Positions 6,021-30,063 of a stretch of 40,967 nt of DNA are shown here, one piece after another. Position numbers and translations under genes: made by a program. The notes beneath the pieces were generated by a model. The model worked only from the letters and a program-made list of their open reading frames with translations, ran no database searches and was not told where the DNA came from. The stretch is from Candidatus Nitrosopumilus sp. GTDB taxonomy: Archaea > Thermoproteota > Nitrososphaeria > Nitrososphaerales > Nitrosopumilaceae. Location: assembly GCA_029864235.1 (NCBI GenBank), contig JAOTTW010000005.1, positions 1-40,967 of the forward strand, given 5' to 3'. Numbering within the stretch: position 1 is the stretch's first letter; each line of letters starts with the position of its first letter.

Positions 6021-7955
6021 TTATTCTGATGGCCTTGTATCAAACATCTCTCTTTCCTGGGCAGTCGGCATAAACTTTGCATGAATCCTATGATTCTTTG
6101 TGAGAAACAAGGCATGTCCTGCATTAAATGCACGAATTTTGTTTGTCTCAGAGTCAGACAACCTCAAGACAGTTCTTGCAGTTTCTGCTGCCTGCTCTTC
6201 GAGACCCAGTATGATTTTGGTCTCCATGTTATCAATGATTTTGCCAATTCCCGAGTCATCTTCTTTTGAGATGTCTTCTAATCTTTGAGAGATGAATCCA
6301 AATGTGATGTTGAGTTTCCTGCCCATTCGAACGATCATGTTGACATACTTTGCAGCATTTTTCATTCTAAGTAACATCCATGCCTCATCTATCAGTACAA
6401 TCTTCCTCGTTCTTGCAGGCAGGTCATTGCAAATCTTGAATATCTTGTTTAACAATAATAGCAAAATCATCTGTTCAGTCTCAGATCCAGTTGCACCCTC
6501 CATTGACATTATTACTTTTTTCTGGGAGTTTAATCTGGGCTCGCCCAAAATTATCCTGGATAGTGGGCCTTTCTTCAAGTTAATCAGGCTATCTTTGTAT
6601 TTTTTTGGAATCATCTCAAAGAATTCCTCGAAGGTTCTGGCCTTTCCACAGTATGTCTGAAACTGTCTCTTTACATCATCTGATGCATTTGTGATCTCAG
6701 CCAAAATGTCTGCGGCATCTAAAGGATCAAGTAAAACAAATGGGTCAAGGCCTAGCTGATCTTTTTCATCTTTGAGATACAATACATCCATTCCAAAGAA
6801 ATCAGCAATCCTAGAATACTCTCCCATGGGATCAATCACATACACGTAAGAGTCTGGAAATTTCTTCAGCAAACGATTCAACAGGATTTTGACGGTAAAT
6901 GATTTGCCAGAACCTGACTTGCCGATCACTGCAATGTTGTAGTTGGTACGCTTGCCAATGTCAAAAATTATTGGACCCTTGGAGTCCATGTTGATTCCAA
7001 GAGGAATGCCGTCAGGAATCTCAAGCATGTCAGCTGATGCAAAAGAATACAGAATTCCACAGGAGCCACGATCAAAGGTAATCTTTTTTCCAAATCCTTC
7101 AAAGAGCATTGCAGCCTGTTTTGCAGAAACTGCACTAAAATGTCCGCCATATCTTTTGAGATGCTTCTTGAATGTCTTGCAGTTTTCTTTTAATGACTTG
7201 CGGTCCTCTCCCACTACAGTACAGTTTACTATTACCTCATAGAGTCTGGTGGTATCTTTTCTCAAAGAGTTTTCAGCATCATCTGCCCTCTTGTATAATT
7301 CTGATGTTGTCCTGTTGGATTTGGCATCATCATATATGATGTTCTTGAATCGGACCATCCTTGTTATTGCCTCGTCTTTGTCAAGGGGGTTATACCACAT
7401 TTGTATCTGTGAGCAGATATCAAAAATTCTGGTGATCCATGCATAAGGTAATGTTGCTGGAATTCCATCAAGTGTAAAAGTTTTTGAGAATATTTTCTCT
7501 CCAGTGTCTGGTTCTTCATTCCCATAATTGTTATTGCTTGGATCATCTGGGATTATCTCTACCAGTTCCATCATGGAGAAATGCTCTTTTTTTATCTGAA
7601 ATTTTGGAGGAGTTGCACCTGAAATGTACTCAAGTCTGTTCTGCTCTAGTGTGTCTGCAATGGGAGTATGTGACTCTAGATGTACCTGCATTACAGGCAT
7701 GTTTTGAATCTGTCCTTCTACGGTAATTGGTACCATTCTCCTTGACATTGTGATTTTGATGCGGTCATCAATCACATTTAGAATGTCAAAGAACTGTCCC
7801 AGTCTTTGGAGTTGTGCCTCTTCTGAGAGATTGATAAAGTTTGTAGGTATTATTGAGTAACTGTATGCAAAGTTGGTAGATTTTTTCTTCTTTGGTATAG
7901 AATATAGAATAGTTTTTTTAGATTGTTTATTCTTTCCTGATAATTGTAGTTTCAC
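6021..7955 (-). CDS. VirB4/TraC-like conjugation ATPase (644 aa)
   Basis: Residues 1-300 form the alpha/beta N-terminal domain typical of VirB4-family proteins. The ATPase domain has Walker A GKSGSGKS (345-352), IDPMGEYS (about 373-380) and Walker B IVLIDEAW (519-526), followed by a conserved SQR (about 556-558) and a C-terminal FLTKNHR-AKF segment. VirB4 enzymes assemble at the inner face of type IV secretion channels and power substrate or pilin movement. CedB of the archaeal Ced DNA importer is a relative. The start is GTG, 25 nt after TATACA in a promoter nearly identical to that of the 287-aa gene at 11917. It is divergent from the SIR2-TM gene. No relaxase or coupling protein is visible nearby. 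Confidence 0.88.
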   Translation of the reverse strand: MKLQLSGKNKQSKKTILYSIPKKKKSTNFAYSYSIIPTNFINLSEEAQLQRLGQFFDILNVIDDRIKITMSRRMVPITVEGQIQNMPVMQVHLESHTPIADTLEQNRLEYISGATPPKFQIKKEHFSMMELVEIIPDDPSNNNYGNEEPDTGEKIFSKTFTLDGIPATLPYAWITRIFDICSQIQMWYNPLDKDEAITRMVRFKNIIYDDAKSNRTTSELYKRADDAENSLRKDTTRLYEVIVNCTVVGEDRKSLKENCKTFKKHLKRYGGHFSAVSAKQAAMLFEGFGKKITFDRGSCGILYSFASADMLEIPDGIPLGINMDSKGPIIFDIGKRTNYNIAVIGKSGSGKSFTVKILLNRLLKKFPDSYVYVIDPMGEYSRIADFFGMDVLYLKDEKDQLGLDPFVLLDPLDAADILAEITNASDDVKRQFQTYCGKARTFEEFFEMIPKKYKDSLINLKKGPLSRIILGEPRLNSQKKVIMSMEGATGSETEQMILLLLLNKIFKICNDLPARTRKIVLIDEAWMLLRMKNAAKYVNMIVRMGRKLNITFGFISQRLEDISKEDDSGIGKIIDNMETKIILGLEEQAAETARTVLRLSDSETNKIRAFNAGHALFLTKNHRIHAKFMPTAQEREMFDTRPSE

Positions 7956-8157: not shown

Positions 8158-10101
8158 TTGAAAATTGCTTTTCTATTTGGTGCAGGAACTTCAGCGCCAT
8201 CTGGCATTCCAATGACAAAACAGATGATTAGTGATATAATAAAAAAACCAATTGATTGGCCTCAAAAAGAATATCAAAATTGTGGAGATGTAATCCAAAA
8301 AATCCTAGGCAGTACAGAGTATAACAATATTGAAATTTTGATGGAAGAATTGGAGAAAGTTATCGATACGCCAAGAGAGTGGTTGGAGAAACATGGTTAT
8401 TGCAAAGAGGATATTATAACTATTGAAGATAATCAAGAAGAGGCCAAACTTCTTCTTAAAGAAATTAAAAATTACATAAGTAATGTATGTCATGTAAGGA
8501 CAAATTTAGATGATGGAAAAGAAGCTCTGAGACCAATAATCGAACTGGGTAAAAATCACATAGTTAAGATCTTTACTACAAATTATGACAATAATATTGA
8601 AGATACATGCAAAGATCTAGATGTTGAATATAGCACAGGAATTGGCGTAGACGAGAATAATAAAGAATATTTTTCACCTGTCTTCTTTAATGATGATAAA
8701 AAATTAGGCATTTACAAACTACATGGATCGGTGTATTGGTATAGAAACAAGAATGCACCAGGAACTATTATTGATCTTGATGCGCCAGACCTAACTGGTA
8801 AAACAATTGAGGATGCTATGATCTACCCAGGTAGAAAAAAAGAGCTATTGAACTATCCATATTCTGTCTTGTTTAGATTATTTGATCATGCCATGGACAA
8901 ATTAGATAAACTGGTGGTGATTGGTCATAGATTTGAAGATACACACATTATGGAAATGATAGAGCACCGTATAGGAAAAAATAATTTTGAATTAATCATA
9001 GTTAATCCAAAACCAAATGAAAGCGACAAGATAATAGAATTAAGCAAAAAACCTGGTGTAAAGATAATTCCTAAAACAATTCAAGAATGGACCGAAGATG
9101 AAAGTTTTAAGAATGTATCTGAAGAGATGGAGCCAATTCCAGATGAGGAAATAATTCCAGATAAGGAACCAATTCCCAAGAGAGAGAAAATACTAATGGG
9201 TGCACTAGTAGCATCTGTTGCACTAGTAATTATTTTTGCTCCTTTATCCTATGTATACAACGAACAAAATGATCTTCTGACAGTAATTCATGCAAATGAA
9301 ATTGCAAAAAATGAATATGATACAGTCAAAAAAGTGATCAAAGGTGACATAAGCAAGTCATTTGAAATAAGTGTTAATCTTAAAAATAATGCAATCGAAG
9401 AATATAATCAACATTTTCTACCTAAAGGTGTAAGCACAGAGGACTATCTAAATAACACACTAAGTAAAAAGTATGAAAATATTTCCATCTTTCAAGAACA
9501 AACAGATACAGTAATCCATGTGGATCCAATACATTATGGGATACTAGCAATGCAAAACGATGATGGAGGCTGCAAGTATATTTTGTATCCATATGAGCAA
9601 AGAATGTTAGACAACGGAGGTTCAGGCATACCACCACAGGAGTGGTGTCCTAGAATTGAGTCAAAGGCAGGGCCAATAATGACCGATGTTCTTCACTCTT
9701 ATGGGGGGGAAGATTTTGCAGTCGATGTTGGAATGAGGTTTGATCTAGATGGGGATGATGATCCTGACGGATACCATCTGATGGGAATGACTAGAGGTAA
9801 GATGTGCAATGAGGTAAGAGACTACAACATGCAGCATCAGTTTGTGTTGGTAAGTGACAACATGGAGATAATATTTGACACAGGTAAGGATAAAAAATGT
9901 AACAAGATAGACGCATACAAAAACGGTATTTTTGACGGTGAAAAATTCGGAGACATATCTCCAGGATTATTTGATAGATCAGATTATCCTACATTGTCAA
10001 ACGTGGAAGAGAAAATTCAACTGTCAGATTTTAAGGCAATACATGATTATGACATTCAAGAAAACAAGGATGTTTCTTGGACACTTTACATGTACAAATA
10101 G
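8158..10101 (+). CDS. SIR2-like NADase-type domain fused to a transmembrane segment and outside domain (647 aa)
   Basis: The TTG start at 8158 places a Rossmann GAGTS (8-12) at the very N-terminus, as in SIR2-like proteins. TTNYD (140-144), KLHGS (187-191) and VIGHRF (254-259) complete the pattern of the SIR2_2-type family, whose members include NAD-consuming anti-phage effectors. An acidic Pro/Glu linker (318-343) leads to KREK and one transmembrane helix (345-367). By the positive-inside rule the SIR2 domain is cytoplasmic. The roughly 280-residue C-terminal part has an initial helical segment (370-410) and a Cys-containing beta-rich region (DDGGCKYILYP, PPQEWCP), and would lie outside the membrane as a possible sensor. 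The gene is divergent from VirB4 and does not share its promoter type. A defence or signalling function is inference. Confidence 0.8.
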   Translation: MKIAFLFGAGTSAPSGIPMTKQMISDIIKKPIDWPQKEYQNCGDVIQKILGSTEYNNIEILMEELEKVIDTPREWLEKHGYCKEDIITIEDNQEEAKLLLKEIKNYISNVCHVRTNLDDGKEALRPIIELGKNHIVKIFTTNYDNNIEDTCKDLDVEYSTGIGVDENNKEYFSPVFFNDDKKLGIYKLHGSVYWYRNKNAPGTIIDLDAPDLTGKTIEDAMIYPGRKKELLNYPYSVLFRLFDHAMDKLDKLVVIGHRFEDTHIMEMIEHRIGKNNFELIIVNPKPNESDKIIELSKKPGVKIIPKTIQEWTEDESFKNVSEEMEPIPDEEIIPDKEPIPKREKILMGALVASVALVIIFAPLSYVYNEQNDLLTVIHANEIAKNEYDTVKKVIKGDISKSFEISVNLKNNAIEEYNQHFLPKGVSTEDYLNNTLSKKYENISIFQEQTDTVIHVDPIHYGILAMQNDDGGCKYILYPYEQRMLDNGGSGIPPQEWCPRIESKAGPIMTDVLHSYGGEDFAVDVGMRFDLDGDDDPDGYHLMGMTRGKMCNEVRDYNMQHQFVLVSDNMEIIFDTGKDKKCNKIDAYKNGIFDGEKFGDISPGLFDRSDYPTLSNVEEKIQLSDFKAIHDYDIQENKDVSWTLYMYK

Positions 10102-25923: not shown

Positions 25924-26262
25924 TCATTGTGCATCAACCAGATTGACAAAAGTCTTACCTGCCTTTGTCTTGTCACTGACACACTTGAGTGGTCCAAGTG
26001 GAATGCTCTTCTCATTGACATCCTCCCTTATCTTCTCATTAGATAGAGCATTGACTACTGCAATCCTTGTGGTGTGAAATCGATTTACCTTGTTGCCATC
26101 AATATCAAATTCTTCTTTTGTTGTGAACTTGACTCCTTTTGTTGTTTCTTCTCCTTGTGTGTAATCTGAATCCTCAATTGATATTACAGTAAATGGCTTG
26201 TCATCAATTTTAGTCAGGCTGACTGAATTTCCAACTGTTACATAGTCTGATAATTTTCCTAT
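25924..26262 (-). pseudogene. 112-codon reading frame without a standard start (last of a microgene cascade)
   Basis: The open frame begins after the in-frame TGA (26271-26269) of the preceding zinc microgene and runs to TGA at 25924. It has protein-like composition: KLSDYVTVGNSVSLTKI, then FTVISIEDSDY, FHTTRIAVVNAL and IPLGPLKCVSD. Neither ATG, GTG nor TTG occurs in frame. A strong Shine-Dalgarno site (GAGGTGA) is followed by ATGAGATAG, whose ATG is in another frame and stops at codon three. A single lost base after this ATG would restore M-R-I-G-K-L, so a frameshift mutation, a sequencing error, or initiation at ATA (26262) are the options. Confidence 0.55.
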
Positions 26263-26268
26263 CTCATT

Positions 26269-26421
26269 TCACCTCGCCCTAACCTCAAGATTAGCAGAAG
26301 ATGCTCTTGTATCGGGAACTATGCTGCGACAGATTGAACAGGCCAGAACCACACTACCATTGTACAGTCTTACATTATTGGCAACTCGAATCAAGTCCTT
26401 GCAGAAATAACAATTTGTCAT
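26269..26421 (-). CDS. Zinc-binding microprotein, two CxxC (50 aa)
   Basis: It starts MTNCYFCKDLIRV and has a second pair CSIC about 25 residues later, giving a complete four-Cys zinc ribbon. The ATG at 26421 was chosen over an earlier in-frame Met because GGAGGT lies seven bases before it and it overlaps the previous micro-ORF's stop (ATGA). Its own stop sits within the Shine-Dalgarno region of the next frame. Probably part of a plasmid- or virus-derived gene string. Confidence 0.65.
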   Translation of the reverse strand: MTNCYFCKDLIRVANNVRLYNGSVVLACSICRSIVPDTRASSANLEVRAR

Positions 26422-26471
26422 TCCGAGACCTCCAGTAGGCGAAAATACTTTTTGCAAAAATTACAGTTCAT
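26418..26471 (-). CDS. 17-aa CxxC micro-ORF
   Basis: MNCNFCKKYFRLLEVSE, bounded by ATGA overlaps with both neighbours. Its start fuses to the stop of the 54-aa gene and its stop to the start of the 50-aa gene. It may be a true micropeptide, or a translational relay passing ribosomes to the next start, since its last codons contain that gene's Shine-Dalgarno site. Too short to judge on sequence alone. Confidence 0.35.
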   Translation of the reverse strand: MNCNFCKKYFRLLEVSE

Positions 26472-26632
26472 CTATTCAATTCCTCTCTTTCTTCAGAGTA
26501 CATCATGGAATGATTGCAGTAATCTGATTCTGTTGGAAGTGATATGGGGTGTCTTTGCAGTCCTTGAATGGTAAAGAATTTGGAATTGTATCTTGCAACA
26601 TAGTTGCATTGTGTACACCGTGCCACTATCAT
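26468..26632 (-). CDS. Zinc-binding microprotein (54 aa)
   Basis: MIVARCTQCNYVARYNSKFF continues to a second ligand group DYCNHSMMYS, giving a C-x2-C...C-x1-H arrangement typical of a small zinc finger. It ends in a charged helix EEREELNR. It overlaps the upstream gene by ATGA and the next micro-ORF likewise. Function unknown; nucleic-acid binding is plausible. Confidence 0.62.
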   Translation of the reverse strand: MIVARCTQCNYVARYNSKFFTIQGLQRHPISLPTESDYCNHSMMYSEEREELNR

Positions 26633-26853
26633 GGCATAACACCCTCCACTCTCAAGATTACACCTACCTCTCTTTGACCGTTACAGTAAATCCACTTTAG
26701 CTCATCTGAAATTATTCTGCAAGATTTTTTGCTTGTTACTTTTGAATCATAAACATCTACTGTATTTGCTGCATCATGTATGACTAGATCCCTTGGATCA
26801 CAATGAACGCTGAATGGTTTTGTATGATTGTTCTTGTATAGGACAATTTTCAA
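26629..26853 (-). CDS. Small protein heading the microgene cascade (74 aa)
   Basis: The TTG at 26853 is preceded at 9 nt by GGAGGT, so translation starts here. The beta-rich sequence (KIVLYKNNHTKPFSVHCDP ... CRIISDELKWIYCNG ... EVGVILRVEG) has three cysteines and resembles small beta-barrel or OB-like proteins without a definable family. It is the first of five reading frames that overlap by ATGA or share Shine-Dalgarno regions, a compact layout unlike the flanking core genes and typical of mobile elements. Confidence 0.62.
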   Translation of the reverse strand: MKIVLYKNNHTKPFSVHCDPRDLVIHDAANTVDVYDSKVTSKKSCRIISDELKWIYCNGQREVGVILRVEGVMP

Positions 26854-27019
26854 TGGTGGTGAACCTCCGAAATAATTTTAATTGTAGTTAGATTTTCAAG
26901 AAAAGATCTGTGAGAATCACAAGATTTTACAATTTTTCTTTGATTATTAATTAAAATTTGAAATTGAGTTTTGTTTGGTTTGTTGTCATTGCATTCCCAA
27001 GAAGAGAAAAATTTTGAAT

Positions 27020-27160
27020 TCATTTCTTTGACTCCATCTTTTCATATTCAGAGTCGATCAAAATTTCCAAAATTGCAGTTTTTGATAATTTTGTTTTATG
27101 GCATATGTCATCTAATTTTTTTAGATACTCAGGTTTGACATTTACGGTTGAATAACTCAT
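27020..27160 (-). CDS. Ribbon-helix-helix regulator (46 aa)
   Basis: MSYSTVNVKPEYLKKLDDIC is followed by a second helix (LSKTAILEILIDSEYEKM), the strand-helix-helix layout of Arc/CopG repressors. The short strand STVNVK would insert into the DNA major groove. It is divergent from another RHH-type gene at 27267; TACATGTA palindromes lie in between and overlap its own TATA-like TGTATAATA. A regulator of element genes or an antitoxin-type repressor is likely. Confidence 0.7.
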   Translation of the reverse strand: MSYSTVNVKPEYLKKLDDICHKTKLSKTAILEILIDSEYEKMESKK

Positions 27161-27175
27161 GTTTATACAGTATTA

Positions 27176-27260
27176 TACATGTACTTTCATGTTTAATAGT
27201 ATTCCTATTAATCAAAGCAATCCTTATGTCAAAAACAATTAATACATGTAAATACATGTG
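27176..27260. promoter_or_regulatory. TACATGTA operators between divergent RHH genes
   Basis: TACATGTA occurs at 27176-27183 and 27243-27250, and TACATGTG at 27253-27260. The last two lie in a 10-bp direct repeat (AATACATGTA, AATACATGTG), the one-turn spacing expected for tandem RHH dimers. They cover the TATA boxes of both divergent genes. Confidence 0.65.
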
Positions 27261-27266
27261 CAAGAT

Positions 27267-27629
27267 ATGGGCAAACGTGTAGGAGTAATTACTGTAGACA
27301 TAGAAGAACATCTCTACAAACAGATCACAAAAAAAGCTGAAAAACAGAACTTAAGCATAAGAAAATTTGTCAACCAGCTAATAGAGAAGAATTTTCAAAA
27401 AGAGGATTTTTTAAAATTAGTAGCTCCAAAAATAAGCATATTATCCATTGAACAAGAGGGGTTTGTTCTACGTGACGATACTGCAAAGAAATCACGTTTG
27501 GTAGAAGTCAAAATACGAAATGGAAAATTATGGTGTGATTTGGATGAGAAAAATGTCTGTGATCATATCCACTATGTGCTAATGTTGCCAGATATTGTAA
27601 ATTTCAAAGACAAGTTAAAGCAGATTTAG
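27267..27629 (+). CDS. RHH-type DNA-binding protein with Cys/His C-terminal motif (120 aa)
   Basis: Start ATG at 27267 (MGKRVGVITVDIEEHLYKQI) is preferred over GTG at 27258 because a TATA-like TTAATACATG lies about 27 nt upstream and the GTG falls inside an operator copy. Residues 5-42 form a strand-helix-helix DNA-binding unit (NLSIRKFVNQLIEKNF). The C-terminal half ends WCDLDEKNVCDHIHYVLMLP, a C-x7-C-x-H arrangement like the SWIM zinc motif found in small archaeal proteins. Its stop abuts the integrase stop. Probable regulator of integration or element copy control (inference). Confidence 0.68.
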   Translation: MGKRVGVITVDIEEHLYKQITKKAEKQNLSIRKFVNQLIEKNFQKEDFLKLVAPKISILSIEQEGFVLRDDTAKKSRLVEVKIRNGKLWCDLDEKNVCDHIHYVLMLPDIVNFKDKLKQI

Positions 27630-28760
27630 TTAACTAGATTTGGAAAGAGGATGAAAGTTAGACTCAAAGAGCATCTTTTCAAGTTTGCCTATTCTGTCTT
27701 CTTGAGAATCTAGTTTATTTTTGAGATTAGAATTTTCCTGTGTGGCAGCTTCTAGCTGATCAATCTTTTTCTGTTTCTCTTCAAGTTCTGCCTTTTGCCG
27801 TTCTGTAGGATTGACAGTTAGTTGAGGGGTTGCCTTTACAAATTCCTTAAAGCATTCCTCTCTAGTGGGTTGGAGATATACTCCATCCAGACCTCTTTTA
27901 TGAGCCATCAGCTTTTCTGCAATGTTAGAGTTTACAGAGTTTTCCATTTTCAATACACCATTGAATCTTTTTCTAAAACCATATGTTATTGCCAAATCAA
28001 ATCGATTTCCATTCTTTTCCCTAATTATTCCGGATTTCTTGTAAAGGGTGTTGAGAGTTTTGTAGACGGATTGCTGGCTAAGAAAACCATTTTTTCTGGT
28101 TCTGGCATTTTGTTTTGTTGCAAAAAGATAGCTTTCTTCATCAATATGCTCACCGTTTAGTTTTCTTGTTCTAATGTATGCATCAAGTGCATTGCTTGCC
28201 TCATTTGTCAAAAAGGCCCAATAGCCCTCTGCAGACTCGTCATAAATTTTGACTGCATATACATCATCAGACATTTTGTAAAGATGTTTGAATTTTAATG
28301 GAGGATCAGTCAGGACTGCTGGTCTTCCTCCAGTGCTTGCCAGAAAATGAATAATTGCGATCATTCTAAAGTCATTTGTTGCCTTTAGAAGCATCTGTAT
28401 CTCATCAGTTGTAATGGGTCGTTTTCCACCTTTTTCATGGTCAGAACGTGGAACCATCTTTCTAATCTTCTTTCTTGCCCATACGATCTCATTCATGTCA
28501 AGCAAAAGTTCAACTGCACTGAGTTTGACGTTTATCGTGTTACCCTTTAGTCCTGCATCCTTGTGAGATTTTATCCATGTTTTGAGCATCTCCTGAATGT
28601 CTTTTACAGGTGTATTGATTAGCTCATCATACGAATGCAGATCAAAATATCTCATGAATTCATTGATGTTTCTGGTATAGACATTCTTTGACTTTTCATT
28701 ATTCAAACCACTCTCAAAGTTGCTCCATGCTTCATCTTCTACAAGTGGTTCACGATACAT
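27630..28760 (-). CDS. Tyrosine recombinase/integrase (376 aa)
   Basis: An N-terminal SAM-like core-binding domain (1-105) precedes the catalytic domain. Recognisable catalytic residues are Arg146 in STGGRPAVL, Arg263 or Arg265 in YGFRKRF, His287 with Arg289 in LMAHKRG, and nucleophile Tyr295 in DGVYL. Residues 318-366 form a C-terminal coiled coil (EEKQKKIDQLEA), seen in several archaeal element integrases and possibly used for multimerisation. It lies at the border between the mobile-type small genes and the core gene rps11, 89 bp from the latter, so the attachment site probably lies nearby. No tRNA gene is present at this border. Confidence 0.88.
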   Translation of the reverse strand: MYREPLVEDEAWSNFESGLNNEKSKNVYTRNINEFMRYFDLHSYDELINTPVKDIQEMLKTWIKSHKDAGLKGNTINVKLSAVELLLDMNEIVWARKKIRKMVPRSDHEKGGKRPITTDEIQMLLKATNDFRMIAIIHFLASTGGRPAVLTDPPLKFKHLYKMSDDVYAVKIYDESAEGYWAFLTNEASNALDAYIRTRKLNGEHIDEESYLFATKQNARTRKNGFLSQQSVYKTLNTLYKKSGIIREKNGNRFDLAITYGFRKRFNGVLKMENSVNSNIAEKLMAHKRGLDGVYLQPTREECFKEFVKATPQLTVNPTERQKAELEEKQKKIDQLEAATQENSNLKNKLDSQEDRIGKLEKMLFESNFHPLSKSS

Positions 28761-28849
28761 GGATCATAAAGGTCACATGAAAATAAAAAAGGTATACATC
28801 CTATACTAAAAATCAATGTTTTTTAAACCCTTTAAGGTGTGAGTAGACA

Positions 28850-29344
28850 TTGTCAGAAACTGAGGTCAAGATTGAAGAGGCAGAGACGCCAGTTAAGGAA
28901 ACTAAACCTGAAACTGAGGTCAAGATAAGACAATCAGAACCAGAAACTAAAGAAGAAGAACCTGAGAAATGGGGAATCGCCCATATTTTCAGCAGCTATA
29001 ACAATACAATTATCCATATGACTGACCTTACAGGTGGGGAAACCATAGCCATAAGTTCTGGTGGAATTCATGTAAATGCTGACAGATACGAGTCATCACC
29101 ATTTGCTGCAATGAAAGCTGCGAACGCTGTAGTTGAGTCTGCAAGAACAAAAGGGTTCACAGGATTTCACATTAGAGTAAGAGCAGTAGGAGGAGTTGGC
29201 TCTAGAGTTCCAGGCCCAGGTGCACAAGCTGCAATTAGAGCCTTGGCAAGAGGTGGATTTAAGATTGGAAGAATTGACGATGTAACCCCAATTCCTCATG
29301 ACACCACTAGAAAGAAGGGTGGAAAAAGAGGAAGAAGAGTCTAG
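28850..29344 (+). CDS. rps11: 30S ribosomal protein uS11
   Basis: From residue 40 the sequence is a clear uS11: [38 protein letters not shown], then [20 protein letters not shown] and the basic tail [12 protein letters not shown]. It binds 16S rRNA in the platform of the small subunit. The TTG start adds an acidic N-terminal extension of about 40 residues with an internal repeat ([13 protein letters not shown], then [12 protein letters not shown]), typical of thaumarchaeal ribosomal proteins. A TTTAAA TATA region lies about 29 nt upstream. Its end overlaps the convergent 103-aa gene by 4 bp. The usual S13/S4 neighbours are absent. Confidence 0.95.
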
Positions 29345-29652
29345 TTTGAGATTTTTATTCTGACAACACAACCTCTAGTTTTGAAATAATCTGCAATAAA
29401 TTTTGCAAACTTTTCTGATGGTTGACCAGAGGGATATTTGTTGATCATATCTGCAAACTTTTCTTCAATTCCATTTTGTAAATTAGGTTTGAAAGCTAAT
29501 TTGAAAAATGTCCAACCAAAATTTGTAGATGGTTCACTAAGCAAATAACCATTGTAGCATCCTAGCAAGCTCTCCATGTGAGATAGTGCTTTTTTTATCA
29601 AAAGTAGATCATCAAGATAATTTTTTGTACTAATGTCTAAGATAATATCCAT
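29341..29652 (-). CDS. Conserved-looking protein downstream of PDCD5 (103 aa)
   Basis: It starts directly after the PDCD5 stop and is the last gene of the RtcB operon. A helical first part ([20 protein letters not shown]) is followed by an alpha/beta region ([16 protein letters not shown]), ending in a strand CVVRIKIS. No family is recognised. Operon position suggests a link to RNA metabolism or translation. Confidence 0.75.
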
Positions 29653-30063
29653 TTAATCATCACCAGTGTCAAGTGATTGCTTACTTAGTTTATCAGATAG
29701 AGAAACAAACTTTCCATCCTGCTCAACATTGATCTTTGTCTGCATTCTAATGTTTATTCCGACTGATCTAAACAATTGTAATAATTGTCCACCGTCAATT
29801 ACTTCGTTTATTTCTCCAGTATTGATTAACTCAGATAACTTTTCAACAATTATTTTTGTTTCATTTGGAAATTGTGATTCCGCATTTTGCAAAACTTCAA
29901 GACCCCGATATCCTAGTATAGGAACAAGAACTTCCCTAGGAGTCTTTTTTTCCTTGGGCTTTATATTAGATTGTTTTTGGGCATTCTGTTTAAAAGAGAT
30001 ATTTTTTTGCATTTCAGCTAGTCGCTTGGCCTTTAGTCTTTCAAGTTCCGAATCATCACTCAA
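29653..30063 (-). CDS. PDCD5-family DNA-binding protein (136 aa)
   Basis: The start MSDDSELERLKAKRLAEMQ and the core LVPILGYRGLEVLQNAE...ETKIIVEKLSELINTGEINEVIDGGQLLQLF match the archaeal PDCD5/TFAR19 family, a three-helix bundle with a basic N-terminal helix (pieces cut here). Archaeal members bind nucleic acid; the eukaryotic homologue acts in chaperonin and apoptosis pathways. It overlaps the rtcB stop by 4 bp (ATGA) and is followed without gap by the 103-aa gene. Confidence 0.88.
   Translation of the reverse strand: MSDDSELERLKAKRLAEMQKNISFKQNAQKQSNIKPKEKKTPREVLVPILGYRGLEVLQNAESQFPNETKIIVEKLSELINTGEINEVIDGGQLLQLFRSVGINIRMQTKINVEQDGKFVSLSDKLSKQSLDTGDD

Follow-up and report, generated by a model that had tools for sequence, protein, structure and literature searches.

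The window (the whole stretch of 40,967 nucleotides that was analysed) carries on its minus strand a chain of small coupled genes, the last of which, a gene of 112 codons, belongs to a family that appears to be initiated at a conserved AUA codon across the genus Nitrosopumilus. The evidence for this initiation codon, drawn from comparison of sequences, is strong but indirect. The explanation that we consider probable for the locus as a whole is an integrase-side operon of an ICE-like (integrative-conjugative-type) element seated at the 5' end of rps11 in the genome of a marine-type ammonia-oxidising archaeon (Nitrosopumilaceae), with an AUA-started, OB-fold-like gene as its last member. For a gene that is conserved, a start at AUA in place of AUG is highly unusual. 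No earlier report of a conserved archaeal AUA start was found in the open literature searched, which was covered in part, and within that coverage the genus-wide AUA start appears to be unreported. If true, it would widen the set of real archaeal initiation codons and offer a natural substrate for testing start-codon discrimination by archaeal initiation factors, and gene finders restricted to ATG, GTG and TTG would miss or truncate the 112-codon gene.

A chain of seven coupled microgenes next to an integrase

Consecutive frames of 74, 54, 17, 50 and 112 codons occupy positions 25924-26853 of the minus strand, and all five are present as the preliminary description had them. The three ATGA overlaps that it reported (26632-26629, 26471-26468 and 26421-26418) were likewise found, as were the embedded Shine-Dalgarno (SD) sites, which read GGAGGT ahead of the 74- and 50-codon frames, GGAGG ahead of the 54-codon frame and GAGGTGA ahead of the 112-codon frame. 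CxxC motifs are indeed carried by three frames: the 50-codon frame has two, and the 54- and 17-codon frames have a single one each. Two points had escaped the picture of a five-member cascade. Two further coupled minus-strand frames, 27160-27020 (46 aa) and 27023-26850 (57 aa), lie upstream, and a canonical start codon is lacking in the 112-codon frame. The full chain is therefore seven, in the order 46, 57, 74, 54, 17, 50 and 112, with the 46- and 57-aa frames joined via ATGA and the 57- and 74-codon frames via TTGA.

Searches of Pfam, PHROGs and NCBIfam with the small proteins of the chain gave weak or sub-threshold matches only. The first gene (27020-27160, minus strand), which has no upstream SD, encodes a small RHH-like protein of 46 aa (RHH_1, E = 0.009, below the Pfam cut-off); a 52-aa gene stands in its position at three related loci (L099, L100 and L101), and the RHH genes align weakly. 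At the same loci a gene of 53-56 aa takes the place of the 57-aa frame (26850-27023, minus), with marginal sequence similarity. The 74-codon frame (26629-26853, minus) begins with TTG in its TTGA overlap with the preceding stop, and no counterpart was seen in the related loci that were fetched; neither it nor the 57-aa frame has clear homologues. The 54-aa gene (26468-26632, minus) encodes a C2H2-like zinc protein (CxxC...H...H) and is followed by the 17-codon frame MNCNFCKKYFRLLEVSE (26418-26471, minus) and by a 50-aa zinc-ribbon-like protein (26269-26421, minus), whose TGA stop codon doubles as the TGA in the SD that serves the following gene. This SD, GAGGTGA (26269-26275, minus), lies 6 nt ahead of the ATA (26262-26260) from which the 112-codon gene (25924-26262, minus) is counted.

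Facing the seven tightly coupled genes is a divergent Arc/RHH-type regulator of 123 aa (27258-27629, plus strand; PHROG Arc-like repressor, E = 4e-6) with a C-terminal C...C.H motif, of which C93, C101 and H103 are invariant across four aligned loci. Behind it lies a tyrosine recombinase/integrase of 376 aa (27630-28760, minus; PHROG integrase, E = 2.7e-8 and 1.5e-5; 23% identity to the psiM100 integrase). The chain is probably an integrase-side regulatory operon, and as such adds one more example to a kind already known.

The gene string recurs in other genomes

The preliminary description had proposed a search for conserved gene order in related elements, and a similar string was found. Homologues of the 54-aa zinc protein, 50-56% identical, are present on contigs G154:C117, G154:C95 and G153:C4. 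On each of them the order is a small RHH-like gene, a gene of 53-56 aa, at most one or two further frames and the 54-aa gene, and on the opposite side of the string stands a divergent regulator of 123-135 aa with the C...C.H motif invariant. Integrase genes are present on both G154 contigs; none was identified in the G153 stretch examined around the string. At L099 and L100 the 54-aa gene is followed by a gene of 31 and 33 aa, respectively, with the motif CxxC-x16-Hx3-4H. A similar string of divergent regulator, small RHH-like gene, gene of about 55 aa, 54-aa zinc gene and short C2H2-like gene thus recurs in two Nitrosopumilus genomes.

Counterparts of the 54-aa protein (E = 1e-10 to 1e-13) occur in similarly arranged strings elsewhere, which indicates that the chain is not a product of chance, and so does the overall dN/dS of about 0.1 in the 112-aa family. 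With the string, the mobile elements of ammonia-oxidising archaea, of which little is known, gain a conserved, putatively regulatory module. As a separate observation, a possible glycosidase, secreted-looking and with a SYSPxR...P...I..DM motif, lies on the integrase/regulator side at the related loci (L099:1527-2462, L100:1288-2394 and L101:10840-11757) and is absent from the cascade region of the window.

A probable ICE-like element at the 5' end of rps11

Synteny with four other Nitrosopumilaceae genomes is intact rightward of position 28808 and stops leftward at exactly that base, 48 bp from the integrase gene. The region from 28808 to 29163, which comprises the rps11 promoter and the 5' part of its coding sequence, is the right attachment region, and contig C53 of the same genome terminates in a second copy (98.5% identical over 336 bp; G000:C53:10594-10949, L116). 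C53 also bears the gene found to the left of rps11 in the relatives, whose site is empty. Because of the synteny break at 28808 and this second att/rps11 copy, we conclude that the element was inserted at the 5' end of rps11. The att repeat is found on contigs C51 and C53, the latter ending inside it, and C53 could either carry the left att copy or represent the empty-site allele. The element is incomplete on the window's contig, its left end lying off it.

A VirB4/HerA/TraG-type ATPase of the same element is encoded at about 6021-7955 on the minus strand (AAA_10, E = 4e-17; TraG P-loop, E = 4e-14; DUF87). Relatives of the window's 6-18 kb segment occur, with order kept, in G153:C4 and G013:C78, and at a distance of about 23 kb from this DNA G153:C4 also bears the string with the 54-aa gene. 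Among the window proteins tested, on a contig that holds part of the element, no VirD4/TraG coupling ATPase, TFIIB or ParB was seen; a TFIIB-like reading frame was recognised by eye in the G153 relative. Two other features of this part of the window were noted. A SIR2-domain protein of 647 aa (8158-10101, plus) matches the PADLOC SIR2 anti-phage defence model (E = 4e-28) and is probably defence cargo of the element. Positions 1-1897 form a long GC-rich repetitive stretch, strongly skewed, which probably encodes a repeat-rich surface protein and is a likely cause of the contig break.

The preliminary description had suggested a virus or plasmid origin for the chain. Its mobile nature is borne out by the integrase, the break at 28808, the att/rps11 copy, the VirB4/TraG ATPase and the similar strings elsewhere, but the element looks like one of the ICE type rather than a virus. 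Archaeal viruses typically have RHH and zinc microgenes, one distant 112-aa homologue sits on an IMG/VR contig, and L101 carries a primase-helicase and a Dam methylase, all of which would suit the early region of a provirus. We nevertheless regard this origin as unlikely: the element has a VirB4/TraG-type ATPase, no capsid, packaging or terminase match worth trusting was obtained among the window proteins tested from this partial element, and the 54-aa gene has no relative in IMG/VR viral contigs and only a weak 44% match, to a Microviridae record, among phage records.

With the ICE and cryptic integrated elements of thaumarchaea, as portrayed in the main text of Krupovic et al. (2019; PMC6563490), the ICE-like element of the window has in common an end-located tyrosine integrase, a VirB4/TraG-type ATPase, RHH regulators, a host-gene target and modular content; the G153 relative, moreover, shares TFIIB-like and primase-helicase genes with them. 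The targets in protein genes given in that main text are 3'-distal ends, and ribosomal proteins are not mentioned there, whereas the window element targets the 5' end and promoter of rps11. No description of the zinc-microgene string was found in the passages of that survey compared here.

SD sites mark operon-internal genes

Strong SD use in the chain had been read as a pointer to a viral or plasmid origin, and this reading did not survive comparison with resident genes. SD sites are also found at the resident coupled genes behind an rtcB-type gene (AGGTG at the start at 30063, GGTGAT at the start at 29652), and the 112-aa gene has a perfect SD also as a resident of the Nitrosopumilus chromosome. 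In the small sample that the window provides, first genes are mostly without SD in resident and element DNA alike, and genes coupled behind another have one in both. Since resident operon-internal genes use SD sites too, the SD is a mark of operon-internal position, and its use as a sign of foreign origin can be discarded.

Overlaps of the NTGA type are the commonest gene spacing in archaea and bacteria, and translational coupling at such pairs has been demonstrated experimentally in Haloferax volcanii (PMC12548453). The ATGA and TTGA overlaps of the window resemble these pairs but link six to seven microgenes of a mobile element into one chain, for which coupling is predicted. In the operon as we picture it, the first cistron would start without an SD, and the later cistrons would be translated by termination-reinitiation aided by the internal SD sites. 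The RHH and zinc proteins may be DNA-binding regulators of excision or replication.

The 17-codon frame had been proposed to be a relay peptide, that is, a functional member with the sole role of carrying ribosomes to the next start. The next frame's SD does lie within it, and an ATGA overlap borders it on either side. Its positional relatives at L099 and L100, however, encode 31-33 residues with the full zinc motif, and the window frame matches only the first ten of these. The relay role is accordingly weakened and seems to us improbable; the frame looks like a truncated copy of the 31-33-aa C2H2-like gene.

A probable conserved AUA initiation codon in the 112-aa family

The family search turned up close homologues of the 112-codon gene in one other genus (g14), spread over about 40 genomes, the named loci being mostly Nitrosopumilus, and in a class-wide sample of 400 genomes no strong homologue was seen outside that genus and the window's genome. 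At the Nitrosopumilus loci inspected, the gene is resident between genes for small basic or Lrp-type proteins and a cobalamin adenosyltransferase-like gene. The window copy is 55-67% identical to its relatives, and the last gene of the operon would thus be a copy of a protein resident in Nitrosopumilus. Direct descent of this copy from one host lineage was considered and set aside: the tree is unresolved, and the window copy, L028 and L032 sit on long branches.

The window frame has no in-frame ATG, GTG or TTG at its start. ATA stands at the same codon in 37 of 39 distinct sequences, which are related by descent and do not amount to 37 independent events, and the SD (GGAGGTG/GAGGTGA) ends 6-7 nt upstream. 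Elsewhere in the protein, conserved Ile columns mix ATT, ATC and ATA (20/1/14 at column 69, 23/5/6 at column 26), so the fixed ATA at the start is not a matter of codon preference. An in-frame stop, mostly the TGA of the SD itself, lies three codons upstream in 31 of the 37 copies; six of the 37 have an in-frame GTG or ATG two to three codons upstream, inside or adjoining the SD. The two diverged copies that carry ATG have it at the exact ATA codon (L028) or one codon later (L032, on a viral contig). The combination is also rare: five Nitrosopumilus genomes contain a perfect SD followed by N4-7 and ATA just one to three times each, and in every one of them this gene is among the occurrences. 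The window's genome has 14 SD-ATA places, among which only this one opens a frame of at least 30 codons without an upstream canonical start.

Translation might instead begin at an internal codon, with the conserved SD-ATA as a mere leader. The first canonical start is a TTG at codon 16 in 21 of the 37 copies, and codons 2-18, where synonymous change is low, are less strictly conserved than the rest of the protein (a noisier dN/dS of 0.41, vs. 0.06). Yet other copies have TTA, CTG, CTA, CTT or CTC as codon 16, and in three of the copies ATG, GTG and TTG are absent throughout. In addition, the frame and the residues TLADY are preserved upstream of codon 16, the SD spacing suits the ATA, and two homologues have ATG at or beside its position. 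An internal start is therefore quite improbable. It is less probable still that the window copy alone has decayed, its ATG lost by an indel, even though ATGAGATAG lies just upstream, with an out-of-frame ATG AGA TAG ahead of the frame: the ATA is exactly at the ATA position of the resident relatives, most of which have no nearby ATG, and the frame is otherwise intact. The same lack of an ATG near the start in most relatives speaks against a frameshift from an upstream ATG.

Initiation at AUA is thus the reading we prefer, and translation of the 112-codon gene would begin there, at a spacing of 6-7 nt from an SD that is close to perfect. As a weak codon, AUA would probably throttle initiation, and the strong SD would maintain a low, adjustable expression; the 50-aa gene's stop codon overlaps this SD in the element and may also help to keep the gene expressed there. 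RNA structure at the ribosome-binding site does not stand out (median z of 0.13) and so gives no sign of a structural RNA switch in the leader.

Bacterial infC has a conserved AUU start and is autoregulated by IF3. The likeness to infC is that a rare initiation codon, preceded by a strong SD, has been retained throughout a clade, which suggests regulation through start-codon strength; the 112-aa gene differs in being archaeal, in using AUA and in encoding no known initiation factor, and its autoregulation, though possible, is hypothetical. We put forward only tentatively, as a rather doubtful extension, that AUA is an obligatory regulatory start, through which the product, as a nucleic-acid binder, or the stringency of the archaeal initiation machinery would control synthesis by start-codon discrimination, as an archaeal counterpart of infC, and that mobile elements carry the same device.

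The product of the 112-codon gene

No match of the 112-aa family to known families was found in Pfam, NCBIfam or PDB sequences. The AlphaFold model (pLDDT 75) has the order b-b-b-a-b-b, a topology compatible with a five-stranded OB barrel. Foldseek matches were weak (best E = 0.14, low TM-scores), and PriB and SSB proteins came first among them. The predicted order and several of these top matches are in common with OB-fold SSB and PriB proteins, to which there is no sequence similarity and no significant structural match. The product is probably an OB-fold-like protein binding (single-stranded) nucleic acid.

A second family in Nitrosopumilus genomes, paralogous to the first and picked up as weak hits, has members of 101-127 aa with about 38% identity in the core (L044-L050, e.g., L044:4862-5164). 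It was dismissed as a sharer of the AUA feature, the copies read having ATG near the start. At L041 (JADFLN010000056), the copy of the 112-aa gene that starts with ATG is separated by about 4 kb from part of an integrase, 46% identical to that of the window, and another mobile element may carry the 112-aa gene there.
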